The notes under the pieces: model-generated | Database searches by the model: none | What the model was told of the DNA's origin: nothing | Seen by the model: the letters and a program-made list of their open reading frames with translations, nothing else | Made by a program: the position numbers and the translations under genes | Shown here: positions 606-15,645 of the stretch, in pieces | How the letters are laid out: every line of letters begins with the position of its first letter | Position numbering within the stretch: the stretch's first letter is position 1 | Assembly (NCBI GenBank): GCA_017411805.1 | Contig: JAFQPI010000019.1 | Location: 81,660-145,659, forward strand | Length of the DNA: 64,000 bases | DNA from: Clostridia bacterium | GTDB lineage: Bacteria > Bacillota > Clostridia > Oscillospirales > CAG-272 | Direction of reading: 5' to 3'

Positions 606-665
606 GATATTTGCTCCCCATCTTGGAGAGTTTTTTTCTTGAGTTATTTACAAATAAATGCAGGT

Positions 666-707
666 TTTTGAGACTCCCGTAGACTCTCGGTATCGTTTTG
701 AGACTCC
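666..707. repeat. three AGACTC repeats in helical register upstream of terS
   Basis: AGACTC occurs at 671-676, 681-686 and 701-706, i.e. spaced by 10 and 20 bp, so all three face the same side of the helix. The first and third lie in a longer direct repeat TTTTGAGACTCC (666-677 and 696-707). The array ends 48 bp before the terminase small-subunit start. It could be an operator, or a recognition (pac-like) site for the terminase small subunit. I see no good SigA promoter between it and the gene. Confidence 0.5.
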
Positions 708-754
708 GCTCGGCGGTAAAATGATTACGGTACAGACGGGAAAGCGAGGTTACG

Positions 755-1171
755 ATGTCCGCAAGCGACACTACACCGCCAAATACCCCAAGCCGCACCC
801 TGCTTGAATACTTAGCAGACGAGGACAAGATCATCGATGCGATCAGCGATTACGTTCTACGCTGCCGACAAGAAACGGGCGGCAACCCCAAAAGTGCGGG
901 CAGAATACCGAATGTCGCAGGCTTTTGCAGATTTCTCGGCGTGACGCTTTCCGATTTTGATCGGATGAAGTCGACACGTCCCGAGCATCACGGCGCGATC
1001 TGCGCCGCACTTGAGGATGAAGCTCTTAACTCACAGATGACGGCGACCATCCTCTCGATCTATCTCAAGCACCGTCTCGGTTACGGGGAGGATCGCGAGG
1101 AGGTCGGCGTCACCGATTCGGGTCAGCTCCGACTGATCTTCGATCATGACGCATTCGAAGACGGCGGATAG
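755..1171 (+). CDS. phage terminase small subunit-like protein
   Basis: Its 138 residues are the first gene of the phage block and sit directly before a clear terminase large subunit, the usual place of the small (DNA-recognition) subunit. The protein is helical, with a region around residues 50-75 (VAGFCRFLGVTLSDFDRM) that looks like the DNA-binding helix-turn-helix of Firmicutes phage small terminases. The acidic C-terminal end would contact the ATPase. The start is the ATG after AAAGCGAGG. The 3' end overlaps the large subunit by 26 bp, suggesting coupled translation. Role inferred mostly from position and size; sequence match is only moderate. Confidence 0.7.
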   Translation: MSASDTTPPNTPSRTLLEYLADEDKIIDAISDYVLRCRQETGGNPKSAGRIPNVAGFCRFLGVTLSDFDRMKSTRPEHHGAICAALEDEALNSQMTATILSIYLKHRLGYGEDREEVGVTDSGQLRLIFDHDAFEDGG

Positions 1172-2498
1172 CGCGCCCGAGCGCGCCCTTCACATTCCCG
1201 GCTCCCCGAACGAACGCCAGCGCGAATTCTTCTCCTGCAAAAAGAAGTACATCGCCTACGGCGGCGCTCGCGGAGGCGGAAAATCCTGGGCGCTGCGAAG
1301 GAAGCTCATCCTCATGTGTCTGCGGTATCCGGGTCTTCGCTGTCTGCTCATAAGGCGGACTCTCCCCGAGCTCCGCTCAAACCATCTCGCGCCGCTTCTT
1401 GCGGAATACGGCGCGATACTCTCCTACAGCGAGCGTGACCGCGAGCTCACTCTCGAAAACGGAAGCCGTATAATCCTCGGTTACTGCGCCGCCGAGCGCG
1501 ACGCACTCCGATATCAGGGTCAGGAATACGATATCATAGCCATCGACGAGGCAACGCAGCTGAGCGAATATCAGTTTTCTATCTTCAAGGCCTGTCTGCG
1601 TGGCACCTCGGACGTTCCGAGGCGTATTTATCTGACCTGCAACCCCGGAGGCATCGGTCACGCATGGGTCAAAAGGCTCTTCATCGACCGCGATTACCGT
1701 CTCGGCGAGGACCCCGAGGATTACGCCTTCATCCCCGCCACGGTTTTTGACAACGGCATTCTCACCCGCGCCGATCCCGACTATGTGCGCAGGCTCGAGA
1801 CTCTGCCGCCGAAGCTCCGTGACGCCTGGCTCTACGGCAGATGGGATATTTTCGAGGGTCAGTTCTTCACCGAATTCGACGAGGCACGCCACGTCTGCGC
1901 AGACAACGCCATCCCCCGCGCAGACCACACAGTTGCCGCGATCGACTACGGCTTCGACATGCTCGCCGCCTATATCTGCATCTGTGACGCGGAAGGTCGC
2001 GTATACGTCACCGACGAATTCTGCGCACCAAATCTGACTCTCGGAGAAGCCGCCGCAAGGATCGCGGAGCTTTGCCGAGGGAAGAACGTGGAATTTGCCG
2101 TCGCCTCTCCCGACCTATGGAACCGCCGTCAGGACAGCGGCAAAAGCGGCTTTGAGATCATGCAATCTGCTCCCGGCATGCCGCCTATGCGCCCCGCCGA
2201 TGACAGGCGAGTGCCGGGTTGGCGTGTCGTCCGCGAGTATCTGCGTGACCGCGAGGACGGCAAGCCGGGACTTCTCATCAGCCGCCGTTGCCGCGAGCTG
2301 ATACGCTGTCTTCCCGCGCTCCTCTTTGACAAGAACCGTCCCGAGGATGCCGCAGGCGAGCCGCACTCGATCACTCATTCGCCCGAGGCACTCCGCTACG
2401 CGCTGATGAGCCGCTTTACCGCCGAAAGCGAGCTTCCACGGCAAGAAGGGCACGAATTCAGATTCCGCAAAAACAATAAGGATCCCTTCTTTGACTAA
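1146..2498 (+). CDS. phage terminase large subunit (ATPase/nuclease)
   Basis: This is the DNA-packaging motor, which cuts concatemeric DNA and pumps it through the portal into a procapsid. At 450 residues it is a normal length for the family. The Walker A motif GGARGGGKS is at residues 39-47 and Walker B IAIDEA at 131-136 (D134, E135). The C-terminal RNase H-like nuclease begins near AAIDYGFDM (about residue 262), with a second acidic site near FAVASPDLW. Both the ATPase and nuclease halves look intact. No clear ribosome site precedes the ATG, so expression probably depends on coupling to the overlapping upstream gene. Confidence 0.93.
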   Translation: MTHSKTADSAPERALHIPGSPNERQREFFSCKKKYIAYGGARGGGKSWALRRKLILMCLRYPGLRCLLIRRTLPELRSNHLAPLLAEYGAILSYSERDRELTLENGSRIILGYCAAERDALRYQGQEYDIIAIDEATQLSEYQFSIFKACLRGTSDVPRRIYLTCNPGGIGHAWVKRLFIDRDYRLGEDPEDYAFIPATVFDNGILTRADPDYVRRLETLPPKLRDAWLYGRWDIFEGQFFTEFDEARHVCADNAIPRADHTVAAIDYGFDMLAAYICICDAEGRVYVTDEFCAPNLTLGEAAARIAELCRGKNVEFAVASPDLWNRRQDSGKSGFEIMQSAPGMPPMRPADDRRVPGWRVVREYLRDREDGKPGLLISRRCRELIRCLPALLFDKNRPEDAAGEPHSITHSPEALRYALMSRFTAESELPRQEGHEFRFRKNNKDPFFD

Positions 2499-2551
2499 AA
2501 AACGCGTCTGTACCCTGTCATTGAGGGGAAATACAAACGAAAGGAAATAGA

Positions 2552-4279
2552 ATGGCATCGATCAAATTCAAAAATGCACTCGGCGTCGAGCGTGGCTTTG
2601 AGGAAGGCTTCGGCGGAATAGACTCGAGTGCCGCGCAAAAAGCAACCGACAGCCTTTCATCTCTGGTCAACCTGCTCCCCGCTGCAGACGGTTCGCTTCG
2701 TCTGCGTCCCGGATACTGCGAAAAGCTTACGTTATCCGCGCCGCTCAGAGCATCCTTCTCGGTAGGAGAAAAATTCTACGCCTTGGCGGGAAGCAAGCTG
2801 ACGCTTACCGACACCGAAAGCGGCGAAACCACTCTTTTGGCAGAGGTTGCAACCACCTCGGGCACAGCCGAGATATTCCGCTTCGGCGGAGAGCTTTACG
2901 TTCATGATTCGGAAAAGCTCTACCGATATGACGGCAATTTGCTTTCCGAATGCGACGGATACGCTCCGCTTTACGGAAAGAATTGGCATGCTTACGACTG
3001 CGGTGAGGTATTTGAGGATATTAACCTCGTATCCGACCGCATCAGGATCTCCTATCTCGTTTCAGAAGGAGACCGCAACTACAATATCGGGATCAGAGCA
3101 GTCTCGCTCGAACGTATTGAGGTTGACGGAAAAGAGTACGGCGTAGAAGAAAACGGTATCACCTTGAAGGACAACACCGTGCGCTTTACAAACAACATTG
3201 AGGTCTCGGACGGACAGATTGTCACGTTATGGCTAACGATAGCTCCGGAATACTCCAAAAGGCATCTGATCTCAAAGCCCGTAAGTACCTTTGTCTTTTC
3301 AAACAGCGGCGGAGAAAGACTTTGCATGTATTCCTCGGGTGAATCCTCAGAGCTTCTCTGTTCGCTGGCGCCTTCCAAACAAGAGATCTCAGAATCAAGA
3401 AAGAGCTCCGCTTCATCCTCCCCGCTGTATTTTTCAAGCGAAAATTCCATCCGCATAGGTAACGGCGGATATCCGATCACGGGAATGGCACATCATTTCG
3501 ACCGTGCTCTTCTCTTCACAGACGCCAACACCTGGTGCGTTGATTTTGAAGGAGAAGAAGCCGATCCCAAAAGAATCTTCCCCAAGATCTTTCTTCTTAA
3601 TTCCGCAATAGGTTTCGAAGGCTCAGGGAGCACGGCGTACTGCCAAAATGATCCTCTGACATATTACCGCGGAAGGCTCTTCCGTTGGCATTCTCAATCG
3701 GGTGTCCGAGATGAATGCAGCGCGGATATGATCTCCGAACCCGTTTCCCATCTCATCCCCAAGGACGGCGAAAATCTCTCCATGCTTTCGATACCGCATA
3801 TGGGTCTCGTACTCATTTCGGACTCCGAGAGTGATGACGGAAGGATCATCGTTTACAGCACCGAGCGTAAAGCCTGGACGCAATACAGCGGCATATTTGC
3901 CGAGCGTCTCTTCCTTTTCGGCACGTACCCCGCATTTTCACGTTCGGAAAAGATCTACGTATTCGATGACAAACTCAAGGCGGATTTCGAAGACGGAGAA
4001 GAGTTCCCGATAGAGGCGAGGCTGGTTTCGCATTTCACCGATTTCGGCTGTCCCGAGCTCACCAAACGATCGGTAAGAATCTTAATAAACGGTGAGCTCG
4101 GAGAGGATGCAACTCTTGAACTCGAAAACGAAATCGGTGAGAAAAGGAAGATCGGACTTTTGAAAACAGGCGGGGACTTATCCGAAAGGCTGACAATGCC
4201 TCGGTTTAAAAAGCTAAGATATACGATAGAAAGCCGCGATGCCATCTGCCTTGAAAACATCATTCTATCGGCAAAATAA
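2552..4279 (+). CDS. phage tail nozzle/stabilisation-like beta-propeller protein
   Basis: This 575-residue protein is rich in beta strands. Its N-terminal LLPAADGSLRLRPGY matches the opening of podovirus nozzle proteins (P22 gp10 and tubular protein B type), which plug the exit of the short tail. Other family-like stretches are GMAHHFDRALLFTDANTW, GRLFRWHSQSG and a late EARLVSHFTDFG...TKRSVR segment, typical of beta-propeller blades. AAAGGAAA precedes the ATG. In P22 this gene follows the connector; here it lies between terminase and portal. It could instead be another tail propeller protein. Nothing looks truncated. Confidence 0.6.
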   Translation: MASIKFKNALGVERGFEEGFGGIDSSAAQKATDSLSSLVNLLPAADGSLRLRPGYCEKLTLSAPLRASFSVGEKFYALAGSKLTLTDTESGETTLLAEVATTSGTAEIFRFGGELYVHDSEKLYRYDGNLLSECDGYAPLYGKNWHAYDCGEVFEDINLVSDRIRISYLVSEGDRNYNIGIRAVSLERIEVDGKEYGVEENGITLKDNTVRFTNNIEVSDGQIVTLWLTIAPEYSKRHLISKPVSTFVFSNSGGERLCMYSSGESSELLCSLAPSKQEISESRKSSASSSPLYFSSENSIRIGNGGYPITGMAHHFDRALLFTDANTWCVDFEGEEADPKRIFPKIFLLNSAIGFEGSGSTAYCQNDPLTYYRGRLFRWHSQSGVRDECSADMISEPVSHLIPKDGENLSMLSIPHMGLVLISDSESDDGRIIVYSTERKAWTQYSGIFAERLFLFGTYPAFSRSEKIYVFDDKLKADFEDGEEFPIEARLVSHFTDFGCPELTKRSVRILINGELGEDATLELENEIGEKRKIGLLKTGGDLSERLTMPRFKKLRYTIESRDAICLENIILSAK

Positions 4280-4288
4280 GGAGTAAAA

Positions 4289-5854
4289 ATGATTACCGAA
4301 TCTCAAAAAAAGACCTGGCGGCAGTATGAAGCCGGCAGAAATTACAAAAGACAGATCGGGCTCTACTCACGCGTCGAAGAAAACGAACGCTTTTACCGAG
4401 GAGACCAATGGCGCGGCGGCGCAGGATTGCCCAAGCCCGTCTTCAACATCGTCAGCCGAATCGTTGATTATCTCGTTTCAACTGCCGCGGTCGGCGACGT
4501 TAAGATAACGTATCTTGATGAAAACCTCCCGTTCGCTCCAAACACGGCAGAAGCTGACGTTATCAGAAAAGCCGTCGAGCTCATGAGCCAAAACGCCGCT
4601 TACCGTTGGGAGCACTCGCGCCTGCAGAGCCTAATCTACCGTCTTCTTTATGACGCTGCGCTGACGGGCGACGGTCTTCTCTATTGCTCGTGGGATCCCG
4701 ATTCCGACGGCGGAGGCGGTTGGCGCGGTGATATCGTGACCGAGGCGATCGACTCTACGAATATCTTCCCCGCGGACACCTCAAATCCCGATATTCAATC
4801 TCAGGATTACATCATCATTTCGGGCAGAGCAAGCGTTGATTCCTTACGCCGCGAAGCCAAGGAAGCGGGCATGAGTGAGCAGGATATCTCAAAAATCCAC
4901 CCCGACTCTTCCACAGAATTCAACGAGCGCGGTGCAGGTGAGCTTGCCAAGATCGAACCCGAATATGAGGACGGAGAAGCACGCGCTACCTATCTGATCA
5001 AATTCTTCCGTGAAAACGGACTGGTAGTGTTTGAAAAATCTACACGCGACTGTCTCATTCGCCGTGCTGTAACGCCCTGTAAGCTCTATCCCGTAGCTCA
5101 TTTTTCATGGCAGGCGGCAAAGAATTGCTTTTTCGGAAACTCTCCCGTCAGCTCTATGATAGCCAATCAGAAATATATCAACCGTGCGTACGCTATGGTC
5201 ATGAAGCATATGACAGACACGGCTTTCTCAAAGGTCATCTACGACCGCACGAGAATTCCCGAATGGACAAACGAGGTCGGAGAAGCGATCGCCGCAGTTG
5301 GCGGCGGAAATCTTGCAGATGCCGTCACGGTTGTGGGCACGGGAAAGCTTGAGGAAGGCTACCTCGCGCTTATCGAAAACGCGGTCACTTTGACCAAAGA
5401 GCTTTCAGGAGCAACCGAAACCGCGCTCGGAAACGTAAATCCGACCAACACCAGCGCGATCCTCGCCCTCCGAGAGGCTTCAATGCAGGCTCTCGAACGC
5501 GTTCAGAGCGAGCTTTACCTTTGCCTTGAGCAAATGGCTTGCATCTGGGCGGACATGACTCTCGCCTTCTGCCCCGACGGCAGACCGCTTCGCACGTCAA
5601 ACGGCTTCGGAAAGCTTTTCCCCTCGCGTCTGCACTCGCTCCTTCTCCGCGCAAAGATCGACATCTGCGATTCCGCGAGATATTCCGCATCGGGAACGCA
5701 AAGCGTTCTTGACCGTCTGCTCGACGGCGGGCATATCACTCTCGCCGAATACCTTGACCGACTCCCCGAAGGACTTGTACCCGACCGCTTGATGCTTGCG
5801 GAGGCTCACAGAAAGGAGAAGAATAATGGACGAAACGATCGAGATGACGATTGA
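4289..5854 (+). CDS. phage portal protein (P22-like)
   Basis: The dodecameric ring through which DNA enters and leaves the head. The N-terminus (RQYEAGRNYKRQIGLYSRVEENERFYRGDQW...PVFNIVSRIVDYLVS) is characteristic of P22-type podovirus portals: an arginine-rich helix, then the FYRGDQW and NI motifs. Its 521 residues are in the usual range. Stem/crown helices run through roughly residues 290-420 (KYINRAYAMVMKHMTD; LSGATETALGNVNPTNTSAILALREAS). It starts 9 bp after the nozzle-like gene with a GGAG ribosome site and overlaps the scaffold gene by 29 bp. It appears complete. Confidence 0.9.
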   Translation: MITESQKKTWRQYEAGRNYKRQIGLYSRVEENERFYRGDQWRGGAGLPKPVFNIVSRIVDYLVSTAAVGDVKITYLDENLPFAPNTAEADVIRKAVELMSQNAAYRWEHSRLQSLIYRLLYDAALTGDGLLYCSWDPDSDGGGGWRGDIVTEAIDSTNIFPADTSNPDIQSQDYIIISGRASVDSLRREAKEAGMSEQDISKIHPDSSTEFNERGAGELAKIEPEYEDGEARATYLIKFFRENGLVVFEKSTRDCLIRRAVTPCKLYPVAHFSWQAAKNCFFGNSPVSSMIANQKYINRAYAMVMKHMTDTAFSKVIYDRTRIPEWTNEVGEAIAAVGGGNLADAVTVVGTGKLEEGYLALIENAVTLTKELSGATETALGNVNPTNTSAILALREASMQALERVQSELYLCLEQMACIWADMTLAFCPDGRPLRTSNGFGKLFPSRLHSLLLRAKIDICDSARYSASGTQSVLDRLLDGGHITLAEYLDRLPEGLVPDRLMLAEAHRKEKNNGRNDRDDD

Positions 5855-6287
5855 CGAGATCGCTGAAGATGTGATCGAACCCGAAGAAACAGAAGCGAAC
5901 GATAACGCCGATCTGATCGCAGAACTCGACACCCTGCGCCAACGTGTTGAAGTCGCCGAGCGCACAGCGCGAGAGATCTCTGCGGCTTGGCGCGAATTCT
6001 CCGAGCTTTATCCCGACGCAGACTTATCCTCCCTCCCCGATTCATTCAATTCCGCGATCGAGCGCGGGATCCCTCCCGCGGCGGCATACGCCCTTGAGCT
6101 TCGCCGCCGTGAGGTAACAAAACTTCGTATCGAGGCGGCAGATAAACGTGCCCGGGAGCTTTCCGCGGGCAAGGTTCAGCCCACCGAAGATTCACTATAT
6201 TCGCCCGAGGAAGTCCGAGCTATGCCTCCCTCCGAGGTAAGAAAAAACATCGAAAAAATACGCCGCTCAATGAAGAGCTGGCGCTGA
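5826..6287 (+). CDS. putative phage scaffolding protein
   Basis: This 153-residue protein between portal and coat is where tailed phages carry the scaffold that guides procapsid assembly and is then released or degraded. The first 40 residues are strongly acidic, followed by a predicted coiled coil (LIAELDTLRQRVEVAERTA). The end is basic and helical (NIEKIRRSMKSWR), as expected of the coat-binding hook of scaffolds. The ATG at 5826 is chosen because AAAGGAG lies 9 nt upstream; the longer frame from 5796 has no ribosome site. The start lies inside the portal gene. No sequence family is recognised beyond composition and position. Confidence 0.7.
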   Translation: MDETIEMTIDEIAEDVIEPEETEANDNADLIAELDTLRQRVEVAERTAREISAAWREFSELYPDADLSSLPDSFNSAIERGIPPAAAYALELRRREVTKLRIEAADKRARELSAGKVQPTEDSLYSPEEVRAMPPSEVRKNIEKIRRSMKSWR

Positions 6288-6320
6288 CAAAACATTTAAA
6301 AAAAGAAAGGATTAAAAACT

Positions 6321-7139
6321 ATGTCTCTTAAAAACTTTATCTCTACCGTATGGAGCGAAACGCTCTACTCCCAGATGGACAAGAAGTACATCGCCGTCGC
6401 AAACTGCAACCGTGAATTCGAAGGTGATATCAAAGGCCGCGGCGACAGAGTCAAGATTTGCGGTGTCGGCGATATCAATATCTTCGACTACACCAAGAAC
6501 ACAGACTTTGACAACGCAGCTCAGGAGCTTTCCGATTCCGTAAAGACCCTCATCATCGATCAGGCAAAGGCATTCAATTTCCAGATCGACGATATCGAGC
6601 GCGCTCAGACAAACCCCAAGCTCATGGATGCTGCTGTACGAAATGCCGCTTCCGCGCTCGCAAACACCGCGGACAAGTACATCTTCGGACTCTGCAACAA
6701 GGCGGGCAGCAATATCGAAAGCACCGCAACCGTCGATAATATCATCTCCACTCTCATCGACGCACGCACAAAGCTCCTTAAAAACAACGTCTGTGATCCC
6801 GGCGAGATCGTAATCGAGGTCTCTCCCGAGATCAGCAACCTCATTCTCAAGAGCAAGATCAACACCTCGAACGAGGATACCGCGCTTGAGACCGGATGTA
6901 TCGGCAATATCGCGGGCTGCAAGGTATTTGTATCCAATAATATCGTCGTAGAAAACGGCGTACATAAGTGCATCGCCCGCTCCAAGCGCGCCATCGCATT
7001 TGCGGAACAGCTTTCCGAGATGGATGCATACCGTCCCGAAAAGAGATTTGCCGACGCTGTCAAGGGTCTGCACCTTTACGGTGCGGAGGTAATTTACCCC
7101 TCCGAGATGGTAAGACTCGACCTTACCCTCGCCGCGTAA
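6321..7139 (+). CDS. phage major capsid protein
   Basis: Coat protein of 272 residues, probably HK97-fold. It begins MSLKNFISTVWSETLYSQMDKKYIAVANCNREFEGDIKGRGDRVKI, the pattern of small podovirus/siphovirus coats (N-arm, then a glycine-rich GDRV strand). The remaining core has the spine helix (LMDAAVRNAASALANTADKYI) and an A-domain beta segment (GNIAGCKVFVSNNIV). It is shorter than P22 coat (about 430 residues), so the P22 insertion domain is probably missing. AAAGGA precedes the ATG. The position after the scaffold and before the connector supports the call. Confidence 0.85.
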   Translation: MSLKNFISTVWSETLYSQMDKKYIAVANCNREFEGDIKGRGDRVKICGVGDINIFDYTKNTDFDNAAQELSDSVKTLIIDQAKAFNFQIDDIERAQTNPKLMDAAVRNAASALANTADKYIFGLCNKAGSNIESTATVDNIISTLIDARTKLLKNNVCDPGEIVIEVSPEISNLILKSKINTSNEDTALETGCIGNIAGCKVFVSNNIVVENGVHKCIARSKRAIAFAEQLSEMDAYRPEKRFADAVKGLHLYGAEVIYPSEMVRLDLTLAA

Positions 7140-7157
7140 TTTTGAGGAGGGCGAAAA

Positions 7158-7547
7158 ATGAAGCTTCGCTCTGTATACGAAACCGCGCTTAAGCTTATCG
7201 GCGAGGTGGAATGCACCGCATCAGAGGCTGAGCTTTCCGATCGCGCACCCTACATAGGTGCCGCGCTCTGCCGCGAAGCATCCGCGCTTGACCGCGCATA
7301 CCGACAGGCATTCGGTATGGAAAAGGGAGTTGATTTCGAGGAATTGTACCTTGATCTCGAAGAAAAATTCCCCCTTGCGGACAGATTCGCTCCCGCCGCC
7401 GCGTACTACATGGCAGCAATGCTCATACTCGACGAAGATTTCGACCTCTACGAAACGCTCTTTGAGAGATGGTGCGATGCCCTCGCCGCCATCTCTGCTG
7501 AGATCCCCTTCGTCAAGGGCTCAACAGCCGACGTGTATCCCGAATAA
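7158..7547 (+). CDS. phage head-tail connector/adaptor (P22 gp4-like)
   Basis: This 129-residue, mostly helical acidic protein starts 18 bp after the coat gene with a perfect GAGGAGGG ribosome site. The region following the coat gene normally encodes the adaptor that binds below the portal and closes the filled head. The sequence (YETALKLIGE..., LADRFAPAAAYYMAAMLILDEDFDLYETLFERWCDAL) fits the four-helix gp4/gp6-type adaptors. It is the last gene of the block and is followed at once by a terminator, so no further tail genes are co-transcribed. Confidence 0.7.
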   Translation: MKLRSVYETALKLIGEVECTASEAELSDRAPYIGAALCREASALDRAYRQAFGMEKGVDFEELYLDLEEKFPLADRFAPAAAYYMAAMLILDEDFDLYETLFERWCDALAAISAEIPFVKGSTADVYPE

Positions 7548-7555
7548 ATAATCTG

Positions 7556-7601
7556 AAAACGGATACTCAATTTCCGAAAAGGGGTTGAGTATCCGTTTTT
7601 T
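7556..7601 (+). terminator. Rho-independent terminator closing the phage block
   Basis: A long stem AAAACGGATACTCAA (7556-7570) pairs with TTGAGTATCCGTTTT (from 7585), followed by a T run. It sits 9 nt after the connector stop codon. Confidence 0.9.
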
Positions 7602-12838: not shown

Positions 12839-13807
12839 TTACGCCCACGAAATCGTTCTGGGCTTATCCTCTGTCATAACGATCGGTCCGAGAACCGAGA
12901 TAGCCTTGCGAAGTCCCTCGTCAACCGTCATGATGCTGTCCTCGTGCTCGATGGAGATAGCTCCGTCGTAGCCGCAGAGGCGGAGGTTGGAAATAATGTC
13001 TCTCCAATAAGACTCGTTGTTACCGAATCCGACTGCGCGGAATACCCACGCGCGGTTGAGCTCGTCGCTGTAATGCTTGGTATCGAGAACGCCGTTCTTC
13101 GCGGTGTTGTACTTGTCGACCTTGGTATCCTTCGCGTGGAAGTGATAGATCGCGCCCTTCAGCTCGCGGATAGCCGCAACGGGATCCATTCCCTGCCAGA
13201 TAAGGTGGGAGGGGTCAACGTTTGCGCCGATAACGGGACCTACTGCCGCACGGAGCTTGAGCAGAGTCTCGGGATTGTATACGCAGAAGCCGGGATGCAT
13301 CTCGAACGCGATGTGCTCAACGCCGTGTGCGGTCGCGAACGCGCCCATCTCCTGCCAGTAAGGAATCACCTTTTCGTTCCACTGCCATTCGAGAATGGTG
13401 AGGAAGTCATCGGGCCAGGGGCAGGTTACCCAGTTCGGGTACTTCGAACCCTCGCTGTCGCCGGGACAGCCCGAGAAGCCGATAATGGTCTTAACTCCAA
13501 GCTTCTCAGCGAGAAGGATAGCCTCGCGGAAGTCCTTGTCAAAGCTCTCTGCGGTAGCCTTATCGGGATGCAGAGGGTTGCCGTGACAAGCAAGAGCAGC
13601 GATCTCAACGTCGAACTTCTTGAAGGTATCAACGAATGCGTTGTACTTTGCCTCGTCGGCAAGAAGCTCTGCGGGGTTGCAATGAGCCTTTCCGGGATAA
13701 CCGCCCGCGCCAACCTCAACGGTATGTACGCCAAGCGAGGTGAGAATCGACAAGGACTCTTCAAGAGTCTTGTTGCCGTAAAGATTTTCAAGAACACAAA
13801 GTTTCAT
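12839..13807 (-). CDS. sugar phosphate isomerase/epimerase-family TIM-barrel protein
   Basis: A 322-residue AP-endonuclease-2/xylose-isomerase-like barrel. Metal ligands are visible in order: Glu in AFEMHPG, Asp-His in NVDPSHL, His in YHFHAKD, and Glu in AISIEHED at the C-terminus. The segment CPGDSEGSKYPNWVTCPWPDD is typical of the gut-bacterial subfamily found beside Gfo/Idh/MocA dehydrogenases, one of which lies nearby. It probably interconverts a keto sugar or sugar acid; the substrate is not predictable. AGGAGA precedes the ATG. Confidence 0.88.
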   Translation of the reverse strand: MKLCVLENLYGNKTLEESLSILTSLGVHTVEVGAGGYPGKAHCNPAELLADEAKYNAFVDTFKKFDVEIAALACHGNPLHPDKATAESFDKDFREAILLAEKLGVKTIIGFSGCPGDSEGSKYPNWVTCPWPDDFLTILEWQWNEKVIPYWQEMGAFATAHGVEHIAFEMHPGFCVYNPETLLKLRAAVGPVIGANVDPSHLIWQGMDPVAAIRELKGAIYHFHAKDTKVDKYNTAKNGVLDTKHYSDELNRAWVFRAVGFGNNESYWRDIISNLRLCGYDGAISIEHEDSIMTVDEGLRKAISVLGPIVMTEDKPRTISWA

Positions 13808-14559: not shown

Positions 14560-15645
14560 TTAAAAGCGGTATATATCTCCCGTCTTAGCAGAAGTATAAA
14601 TGCCTTCAAGAATTCTTGTTACAGTATACGCCTGCTCGGGAGTGACGAGGGGAGTGGTATCGTTGACGACAGCCTCGATCCAGAGTCTTGCCTCTCGGTC
14701 TGCGGGGGACTCGTTGCCGTGGCCGTCGAAGAACGCCGCGCCCTTTGCGTCAAGATTGGGCTTGAACTCATACTGCGCGTTGTGCGCAACTCCGTTGATG
14801 CGCAGACCATGGTCCATATCCGCGCCTGCGAGAGTTCCGCAGAAGGAGGTCACAGCCTCGCGGGGATCAGCCACGTTGAGCGCCCAGGCGGATTCAAGAT
14901 TGATGGTCGCGCCGTTTTCCATAACTACGAAGCCAAACGCGGAATCCTCGACGGTAAATTTCTCGGGATCCCAGTTGCCCCAGGCGTTGCCCTGATGCTC
15001 GGGGTCGCCCTGCGAGAGCTTGTGGTATGCGGTACCTACGCAGTACTTGGGCTTGTAGTTATTCAGCATATAGAGAGTGAGGTCGAGAGCGTGGGTTCCG
15101 ATGTCGATCAGAGGACCGCCTCCCTGCTCGTACTCGTTGAGGAATACGCCCCAGGTGGGAACTGCGCGGCGGCGAAGAGCGGTTGCCTTCGCATAGTAGA
15201 TATCGCCAAACATACCGTCGTCAACGAGCTTCTTGAGGTAAACGGCATCCGCGCGGTTACGGGTCTGATAGCCGATCGTGAGCTTCTTTCCGGTTCTCTC
15301 AGCGGCATCGAGCATCTTCTTTGCCTCTTCAGAGTTGATCGCCATCGGCTTCTCGCACATAACGTGCTTGCCTGCCTCGAGAGCGTCAACCGAAATGAAA
15401 GAATGCGAACGGTTGGGAGTGCAGACGTGAACGACGTCGATAGTCTCGTCCGCGAGGAGCTCCTTGTAGTTTTCGTAGTACTTTGCATCGGGTGTGCCAA
15501 ACTTTGCGGCAGCCTTCTGTGCCTTTTCAAGGATGATATCGCAGAAAGCGACCATCTCTACGTTCTTGAGCTTAGCGAGAGAGGGCATATGCTTGCTCGT
15601 GGCGATCCCGCCACAGCCGATAATACCTATTCTTACCTTTTCCAT
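14560..15645 (-). CDS. Gfo/Idh/MocA-family oxidoreductase
   Basis: An NAD(P)-dependent sugar or inositol dehydrogenase of 361 residues. The Rossmann GxGxxA/G is at the start (VRIGIIGCGGIATSKHMPSL), the family EKP motif follows (HVMCEKPMAINSEEAKKML), then the putative catalytic region GGPLIDIGTHALDLTLYML, with the conserved Asp/His of the family. The start is the ATG of MEKVRIG; the frame extends 10 codons upstream but without a ribosome site. It probably works with the TIM-barrel isomerase two genes downstream on a sugar or sugar-acid substrate. Confidence 0.9.
   Translation of the reverse strand: MEKVRIGIIGCGGIATSKHMPSLAKLKNVEMVAFCDIILEKAQKAAAKFGTPDAKYYENYKELLADETIDVVHVCTPNRSHSFISVDALEAGKHVMCEKPMAINSEEAKKMLDAAERTGKKLTIGYQTRNRADAVYLKKLVDDGMFGDIYYAKATALRRRAVPTWGVFLNEYEQGGGPLIDIGTHALDLTLYMLNNYKPKYCVGTAYHKLSQGDPEHQGNAWGNWDPEKFTVEDSAFGFVVMENGATINLESAWALNVADPREAVTSFCGTLAGADMDHGLRINGVAHNAQYEFKPNLDAKGAAFFDGHGNESPADREARLWIEAVVNDTTPLVTPEQAYTVTRILEGIYTSAKTGDIYRF

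Follow-up and report, generated by a model that had tools for sequence, protein, structure and literature searches.

A podovirus-like head and packaging operon with a four-repeat promoter array, probably domesticated, in a family of Clostridia

The head and packaging block

The window analyzed here, a 64,000-nucleotide stretch of a Clostridia bacterium genome, contains a head and packaging block of seven genes (755-7547), all of which are intact and lie on the forward strand (Table 1). The original prediction of a complete and unbroken block was confirmed, with the nozzle supported by structure and the putative scaffold and adaptor by their position, and the block was found to end, as had been proposed, at an intrinsic terminator. 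The assignment of TerS is marginal: its match to the GP3_package profile (E 1e-6, 29.3 bits) lies next to the cut-off of 29.4 bits, and the top match of a Foldseek fold search, P22 gp3 (3p9a), was not significant (E 2). Family searches gave no match for the putative scaffold and no usable match for the putative adaptor, while the positional counterpart of the adaptor in a type B locus (see below) matched phrog_13046, which has no annotated function (E 1.6e-4). The closest annotated phage coat proteins share at most about 43% identity with the block coat, and the nozzle is the fastest-evolving of the large block proteins. A PADLOC search with five proteins yielded no match. Family and structure matches identify the block as a set of caudoviricete-derived particle genes within a cellular genome, which is one of the defining features of gene transfer agents (GTAs).

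Table 1. Coordinates of the block, its promoter region and two host genes in the window.
Feature	Position	Strand	Basis or remark
Promoter array, four 7-bp units, 10-bp period	669..705	+	unit TGAGACT
-10-like hexamer TAAAAT	717..722	+	18 bp from unit 4 start
Conserved leader directly ahead of TerS	728..750	+	invariant in the window and three same-genus genomes
TerS, small terminase subunit, P22 gp3-like (marginal)	755..1171	+	GP3_package profile
TerL, large terminase	1146..2498	+	
Tail nozzle, P22 gp10 / T7 gp12 fold	2552..4279	+	structure
Portal, P22-like	4289..5854	+	
Putative scaffold	5826..6287	+	position alone; start codon uncertain
Major coat protein	6321..7139	+	
Putative head-tail adaptor	7158..7547	+	position alone
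Intrinsic terminator	7555..7600	+	
iolE-like sugar isomerase/dehydratase	12839..13807	-	host gene, recurrent block neighbour
Gfo/Idh oxidoreductase	14560..15645	-	host gene, recurrent block neighbour

The promoter array and its unlinked copies

The array upstream of TerS consists of four units (669-675, 679-685, 689-695 and 699-705), of which units 1 and 4 are exact, unit 2 carries two mismatches and unit 3 is degenerate. Taken alone, the window array is modest, being matched by 1/200 and 3/200 shuffles; the array of the relative G001 was matched by 0/200. The 100 bp upstream of TerS are conserved between the window and three genomes of its own genus (g1), and RNA folding of 655-770 was not special (z 0.33). 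Upstream of TerS, 29/55 loci have four direct repeats spaced at a period of 10 bp (reached by at most 2/200 shuffles), compared with 3/287 host-gene control upstreams (at most 1/100 shuffles), and only the period of 10 stood out when periods of 7-15 were compared. With TGNNAC anchors, which were picked after the repeats had been seen, arrays were detected at 28 of 55 TerS loci versus 4 of 1008 control upstreams. The -10-like hexamer lies exactly 18 bp from unit 4 in 23 of these 28 arrays; the remaining five have no -10-like box at this distance, and some of them are probably chance occurrences. Sorted by block type, the array was present in 0/8 type B, 0/22 type C and 0/6 type D loci and in 26/47 of the rest, a count that includes G253, a prophage-like locus, whose AT-rich array was taken as chance. 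The array is compatible with a repressor, an activator or another binder, and we prefer an activator because unit 4 sits where the end of a -35 box would be expected. A LexA-type operator was rejected, with 19 matches versus 21.8 expected. No published description of this four-repeat promoter type was found in the open PMC literature.

Whole-genome pattern scans (two patterns, at most three mismatches, 31 genomes) revealed 11 matches to the TGAGAC pattern in 16 genomes and 8 matches to the TGGCAC pattern in 15 genomes, whereas the reversed pattern control gave none across all 31. Thirteen of the 19 matches lie at TerS. Another five precede DUF6291 genes that are not linked to the block, of which G336 has three and G275 and G370 have one each; the last, in G369, precedes an ORF with a MuF domain and a barnase-type RNase, followed by barstar, on a contig other than that of the block. 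A candidate four-repeat operator with a 10-bp period is present upstream of TerS and, in relatives, of unlinked genes, and these sequence matches point to a regulon. Owing to the degeneracy of units 2 and 3, the window genome (G000) has no TGAGAC scan match, and no DUF6291 gene was detected in it. DUF6291 (PF19808) was found in 7/36 genomes, comprising 7/29 block-positive versus 0/7 block-negative ones, a co-occurrence that is suggestive only, with too few genomes for proof of linkage. The DUF6291 gene of G003 (L374) has no array by score, and the copy in G067 has a weak one, equalled by 27/200 shuffles; L375, L376 and L378, for which the motif filter yielded no DUF6291 gene, were outside the array scoring. 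No paper on DUF6291 was found in the open PMC literature.

Distribution in the host family

Related TerL proteins (E <= 1e-60) were detected in 232/395 genomes of the family, the window genome included, and in 51/71 genera; among genomes of at least 90% completeness and at most 5% contamination, 109/171 were positive. Most positive genomes gave one match, some two, and one genome three, and the counts at this threshold take in a few prophage-like loci (G367, G253). The latter were recognized by eye from unnamed upstream genes in long same-strand runs. Coat matches were obtained in 21/59 genomes (own included), with a single match per genome.

TerL relatives in named public contigs numbered 173, of which the best 80 were kept, and most of the closer loci among these 80 display the order TerS, TerL, nozzle, portal, scaffold, coat, adaptor. 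The locus set comprised 85 members, namely 80 stretches chosen by genus, four same-genus contigs and the window. Eleven genera include a genome with all seven genes called in the order of the window, an order that g15 and g55 share with no scaffold detected (type A). In the remaining loci the nozzle is last or uncalled, or other compact gene orders are present: type B in g5, g21, g22 and g50, type C in, for example, g58, g61 and g83, and type D in g57 and g81, while in g20 and g78 the nozzle was uncalled within the fetched stretch. Codon-model gene calling missed genes in some GC-rich loci, such as TerL in G063. Simple patterns, applied with incomplete gene calls included, found the TerL Walker A motif in 44/46 members of one set, and Walker A in 75/83 and Walker B in 71/83 members of another.

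In IMG/VR, 80 of 224 TerL relatives were kept, and only two of these, L105 and L106, have the block order. A contig end truncates L106, whose proteins are identical to those of the G168 locus; both L105 and L106 carry host oxidoreductase/isomerase genes and therefore look like bacterial DNA. No published record of the distribution of this block was found in the open PMC literature.

Inheritance and selection

The TerL tree has 81 rows, and each of the 18 genera represented by two or more of them forms a cluster (g56 with a support of only 79); the number of genus changes, 17, is the minimum possible, compared with a shuffled mean of 48.2. No TerL pair between genera is closer than 0.30. Mantel correlations with RpoB, computed from homology-checked ORFs of 24-28 genomes with RpoB, were 0.69 for TerL, 0.74 for portal, 0.61 for coat, 0.59 for TerS, 0.60 for adaptor, 0.68 for nozzle and 0.54 for scaffold, and the observed value was reached in 0/999 permutations for each of the seven genes. 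The block is inherited with the host genome, as is characteristic of GTAs.

The block genes are also under purifying selection, a further GTA trait. The window was compared with five relatives from its genus, or with four in the case of the nozzle, and dS is near saturation in several of these pairs. Where dS was finite, TerL, portal and coat gave dN/dS values of about 0.08-0.17, similar to the neighbouring hprK. Higher values were obtained for TerS (0.2-0.37), scaffold (0.15-0.30) and nozzle (0.17-0.35), and pN/pS was 0.14-0.30 for hprK and 0.15-0.31 for coat. The dN/dS check and the search for broken genes, both of which had been proposed as ways to expose a simple prophage remnant, gave the opposite outcome: the ratios are far below 1, and internal stops in TerL matches are rare (one row in each of two listings).

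Genomic surroundings

Both within the genus of the window and in other genera, the same block was found with neighbours of host type. The genes hprK (identified as TIGR00679) and a PrsA-like foldase each lie at most six genes from the block in 13 loci, which belong to six genera, and their neighbourhoods combined cover seven genera; the isomerase cluster is near the block in 9 loci and the oxidoreductase cluster in 6. A block neighbour is shared by 15/15 pairs in g1, 3/28 in g52 and 10/55 in g56. The poor conservation of the flanks in g52 and g56 indicates that the block moves inside genomes, yet stays in its lineage. The flanking genes of relatives were assigned to clusters, most of them without individual names, and small phage genes among them may have escaped notice. 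A search of g1 did not find the block in 7/13 genomes (81-94% complete), and the six of these with hprK found have retained the neighbours of the region with no block remnant. We interpret this pattern as a clean loss from a subclade, the alternative being gain in the others.

The absence of mobility and lysis genes from the window was upheld and extended: neither an integrase nor a tail or lysis operon turned up in the window or within 40 kb upstream, the search for integrases covering 45 genes of the window and 33 genes upstream with PHROG. One weak "excisionase" match was seen in these scans. Some relatives do have lysis genes. In g12 and g14, the nozzle gene is succeeded by an XhlA-like gene, a small ORF and genes for an Amidase_3-LysM endolysin and a Gly-rich protein; the families were tested on L247, a g14 locus. 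One g81 locus contains a GH25 lysozyme. Of the models for these families, that for XhlA matched 0/20 genomes and is insensitive, missing even the XhlA-like gene of G025; the Gly-rich model, also insensitive, matched G025 only; and the GH25 model was positive in 5/13 genomes. The lone GH25 gene of G000 was not counted as a phage lysis gene, as it adjoins rpsF/ssb-like genes (named by eye). With these insensitive models, no candidate for a second lysis/fibre operon was found in G000, an 85% complete genome.

Interpretation and alternatives

These findings are probably best explained by a domesticated phage-head operon that hosts have long kept, a GTA-type element with a podovirus-like particle; "gene-transfer-agent-like" is here an inference from genes. 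Among the three readings originally offered, a domesticated capsid is clearly favoured, and a satellite or a decayed prophage fits worse. The evidence suggests that the particle is retained because it serves its hosts, most likely by moving DNA between cells. The seven genes would be expressed on one transcript, after an activator binds the repeats in a fraction of cells. TerS and TerL would pump DNA, probably host DNA by a headful mechanism, into a small scaffold-built head, and portal, adaptor and nozzle would form a short tail that serves as the DNA exit route. Lysis and receptor binding would have to be supplied from elsewhere, by host autolysins or a second operon, and the strongest candidates for a regulator or accessory factor are the DUF6291 proteins.

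A fuller version of this reading is put forward more tentatively, as less likely than not. It envisages an ancient, family-wide podovirus-like particle of gut Clostridia, pared in many genera to head and nozzle and driven by the array (four TGNNAC units, 18 bp from the -10, as TGAGAC, TGGCAC or TGCGAC by lineage). The same array would act at unlinked DUF6291 genes, encoding a candidate activator, and, in one genome, at a MuF-RNase toxin paired with an immunity gene, a possible cargo, so that hosts would move DNA, and sometimes protein, with host-supplied release and receptor binding. GTA-type elements of this kind would constitute a second, far wider podovirus-like case, with related TerL in 51/71 sampled genera and the seven-gene form in at least eleven. 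The operator offers a searchable handle on regulation, with DUF6291 as candidate partner, and it becomes testable whether the Clostridia of rumen and hindgut exchange DNA through capsids as a rule.

The array before the MuF-barnase/barstar pair of G369 also bears on another reading, in which the particle kills or delivers toxin (PBSX-like, or as a MuF toxin carrier) and harms competitors instead of moving genes. MuF toxins of temperate phages have reportedly been described, and the rapid evolution of the nozzle would suit such a role, but only 1/19 arrays, in a single genome, precedes a toxin, and the conserved full packaging motor would be superfluous for a pure toxin shell; we regard this reading as unlikely, though the strongest of the rivals. 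A capsid-forming satellite would make its own heads and exploit the tail and lysis genes of a helper phage. Capsid-forming PICIs have head genes without tails or lysis, and the block likewise holds only heads, terminase and connector, without lysis genes or fibres. Against this stand the failure to find an integrase beside the head genes or elsewhere in the window and 40 kb upstream, the genus-wise descent of TerL, the block's own nozzle gene and the host neighbours that recur in several genera, which together render a satellite decidedly improbable.

Repeated prophage decay that left the late head genes by chance would account for the lysis genes retained in g12, g14 and g81 and for the uncalled nozzle in g20 and g78. 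It is hard to reconcile with a seven-gene order common to eleven genera, and to two more without a detected scaffold, or with the common promoter architecture, and neither the low dN/dS nor the few TerL stops indicate relaxed selection or broken genes; we consider it very unlikely. A shell retained inside the cell to protect or store DNA would agree with a cassette that lacks lysis and adsorption genes; nozzle and portal, however, serve DNA exit, and we know of no system that works as an intracellular DNA-storage shell, which makes this explanation extremely improbable.

Relation to known particles

The block resembles P22-like podoviruses in its P22-type portal, marginal gp3-like TerS, gp10-fold nozzle, coat and putative scaffold, but no tailspike, needle, ejection, lysis, integration or replication genes were found with it. 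Like the alphaproteobacterial GTAs (RcGTA, CcGTA), it is a vertically inherited phage structural cluster retained by the host. The alphaproteobacterial GTAs are siphovirus-like and controlled by GafA/GafYZ, and the block differs from them in head type and probably in regulators. To our knowledge, GTAs are known in few lineages, and the report of a podovirus-like kind, from Faecalibacterium, dates only from 2026. No paper on GTAs in Oscillospirales was found in the open PMC literature. GTAs have been characterized as elements of caudoviricete origin that pass vertically, are induced in small subpopulations of cells and can package no more than a part of their own genome (PMC9662315), and dedicated activators of the Caulobacter GTA were reported to bind the promoters of unlinked accessory genes too (PMC11150451).

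The Faecalibacterium element, FpGTA, was described as a podovirus-like head and packaging operon without replication genes, which includes TerS, TerL, portal, scaffold, coat and others, and was present in 12/12 Faecalibacterium genomes examined by its authors (Borodovich et al. 2026, PMC12946183). The ten ORFs of FpGTA I occupy 10.5 kb, with a separate 5.5-kb fibre and lysis operon in some strains, and FpGTA particles measure ~40 nm and carry ~9 kb of DNA, with host fragments of 8.4-8.9 kb in metagenomes (PMC12946183). By gene content, both are podovirus-like operons, and FpGTA demonstrates that an operon of such a type can yield particles. Unlike FpGTA I, the block comprises seven genes in 7 kb, with no second operon found; in place of one, the unlinked array genes of relatives encode DUF6291 or MuF-barnase proteins. 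The 4 x 10-bp promoter array, shared with DUF6291 genes of relatives, also sets it apart from FpGTA as described there. By analogy, the 7-kb block could fit within an FpGTA-sized head.

Block variants and records filed as viral

Three species of genus g9 carry, in the same host neighbourhood, a short form of the head block (L258, L260, and L265). It consists of a TerS-like gene, TerL, and portal plus two others, one of them small; no coat gene was recognised in it. At the g50 loci, a gene resembling ECF-type sigma factors (named by eye) and its membrane partner lie immediately 3′ of the type B block.

Two IMG/VR contigs classed as viral (L105 and L106), in which host oxidoreductase and isomerase genes adjoin the block, are probably bacterial DNA. 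An unannotated 9588-bp 'Bacteriophage sp.' record from human faeces (MT836592.1; L104), with protein identities of 50% for TerL, 29% for portal, and 37% for coat, may be a related chromosomal block.

Unlinked genes with the block-type promoter

The solitary DUF6291 proteins (L364–L368) were found to have a basic KKGGRP-type motif in common, and most carry a C-terminal DLEEFFEAAL-like motif, which is also present near the C-terminal end of the DUF6291 protein of g1 (L374). In G369 (genus g52), an ORF combining a MuF domain with a barnase-type RNase is preceded by the same type of array as the head block, which lies on a different contig; a barstar gene lies directly downstream of this ORF.

Genes flanking or unlinked to the head block
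Feature	Coordinates	Context
Zinc-ribbon-like ORF, small, cysteine-rich	L217:7475-7651	immediately upstream of TerS, type B
Zinc-ribbon-like ORF, small, cysteine-rich	L247:7464-7700	immediately upstream of TerS, g14
Sigma factor-like gene and membrane partner	L217:15232-16363	g50
DUF6291 gene	L364:15337-16167	solitary, block-type promoter array
DUF6291 gene	L365:5653-6402	solitary, block-type promoter array
DUF6291 gene	L366:2223-2888	solitary, block-type promoter array
DUF6291 gene	L367:9439-10185	solitary, block-type promoter array
DUF6291 gene	L368:192-941	solitary, block-type promoter array
MuF-barnase ORF	L369:14754-15643	G369
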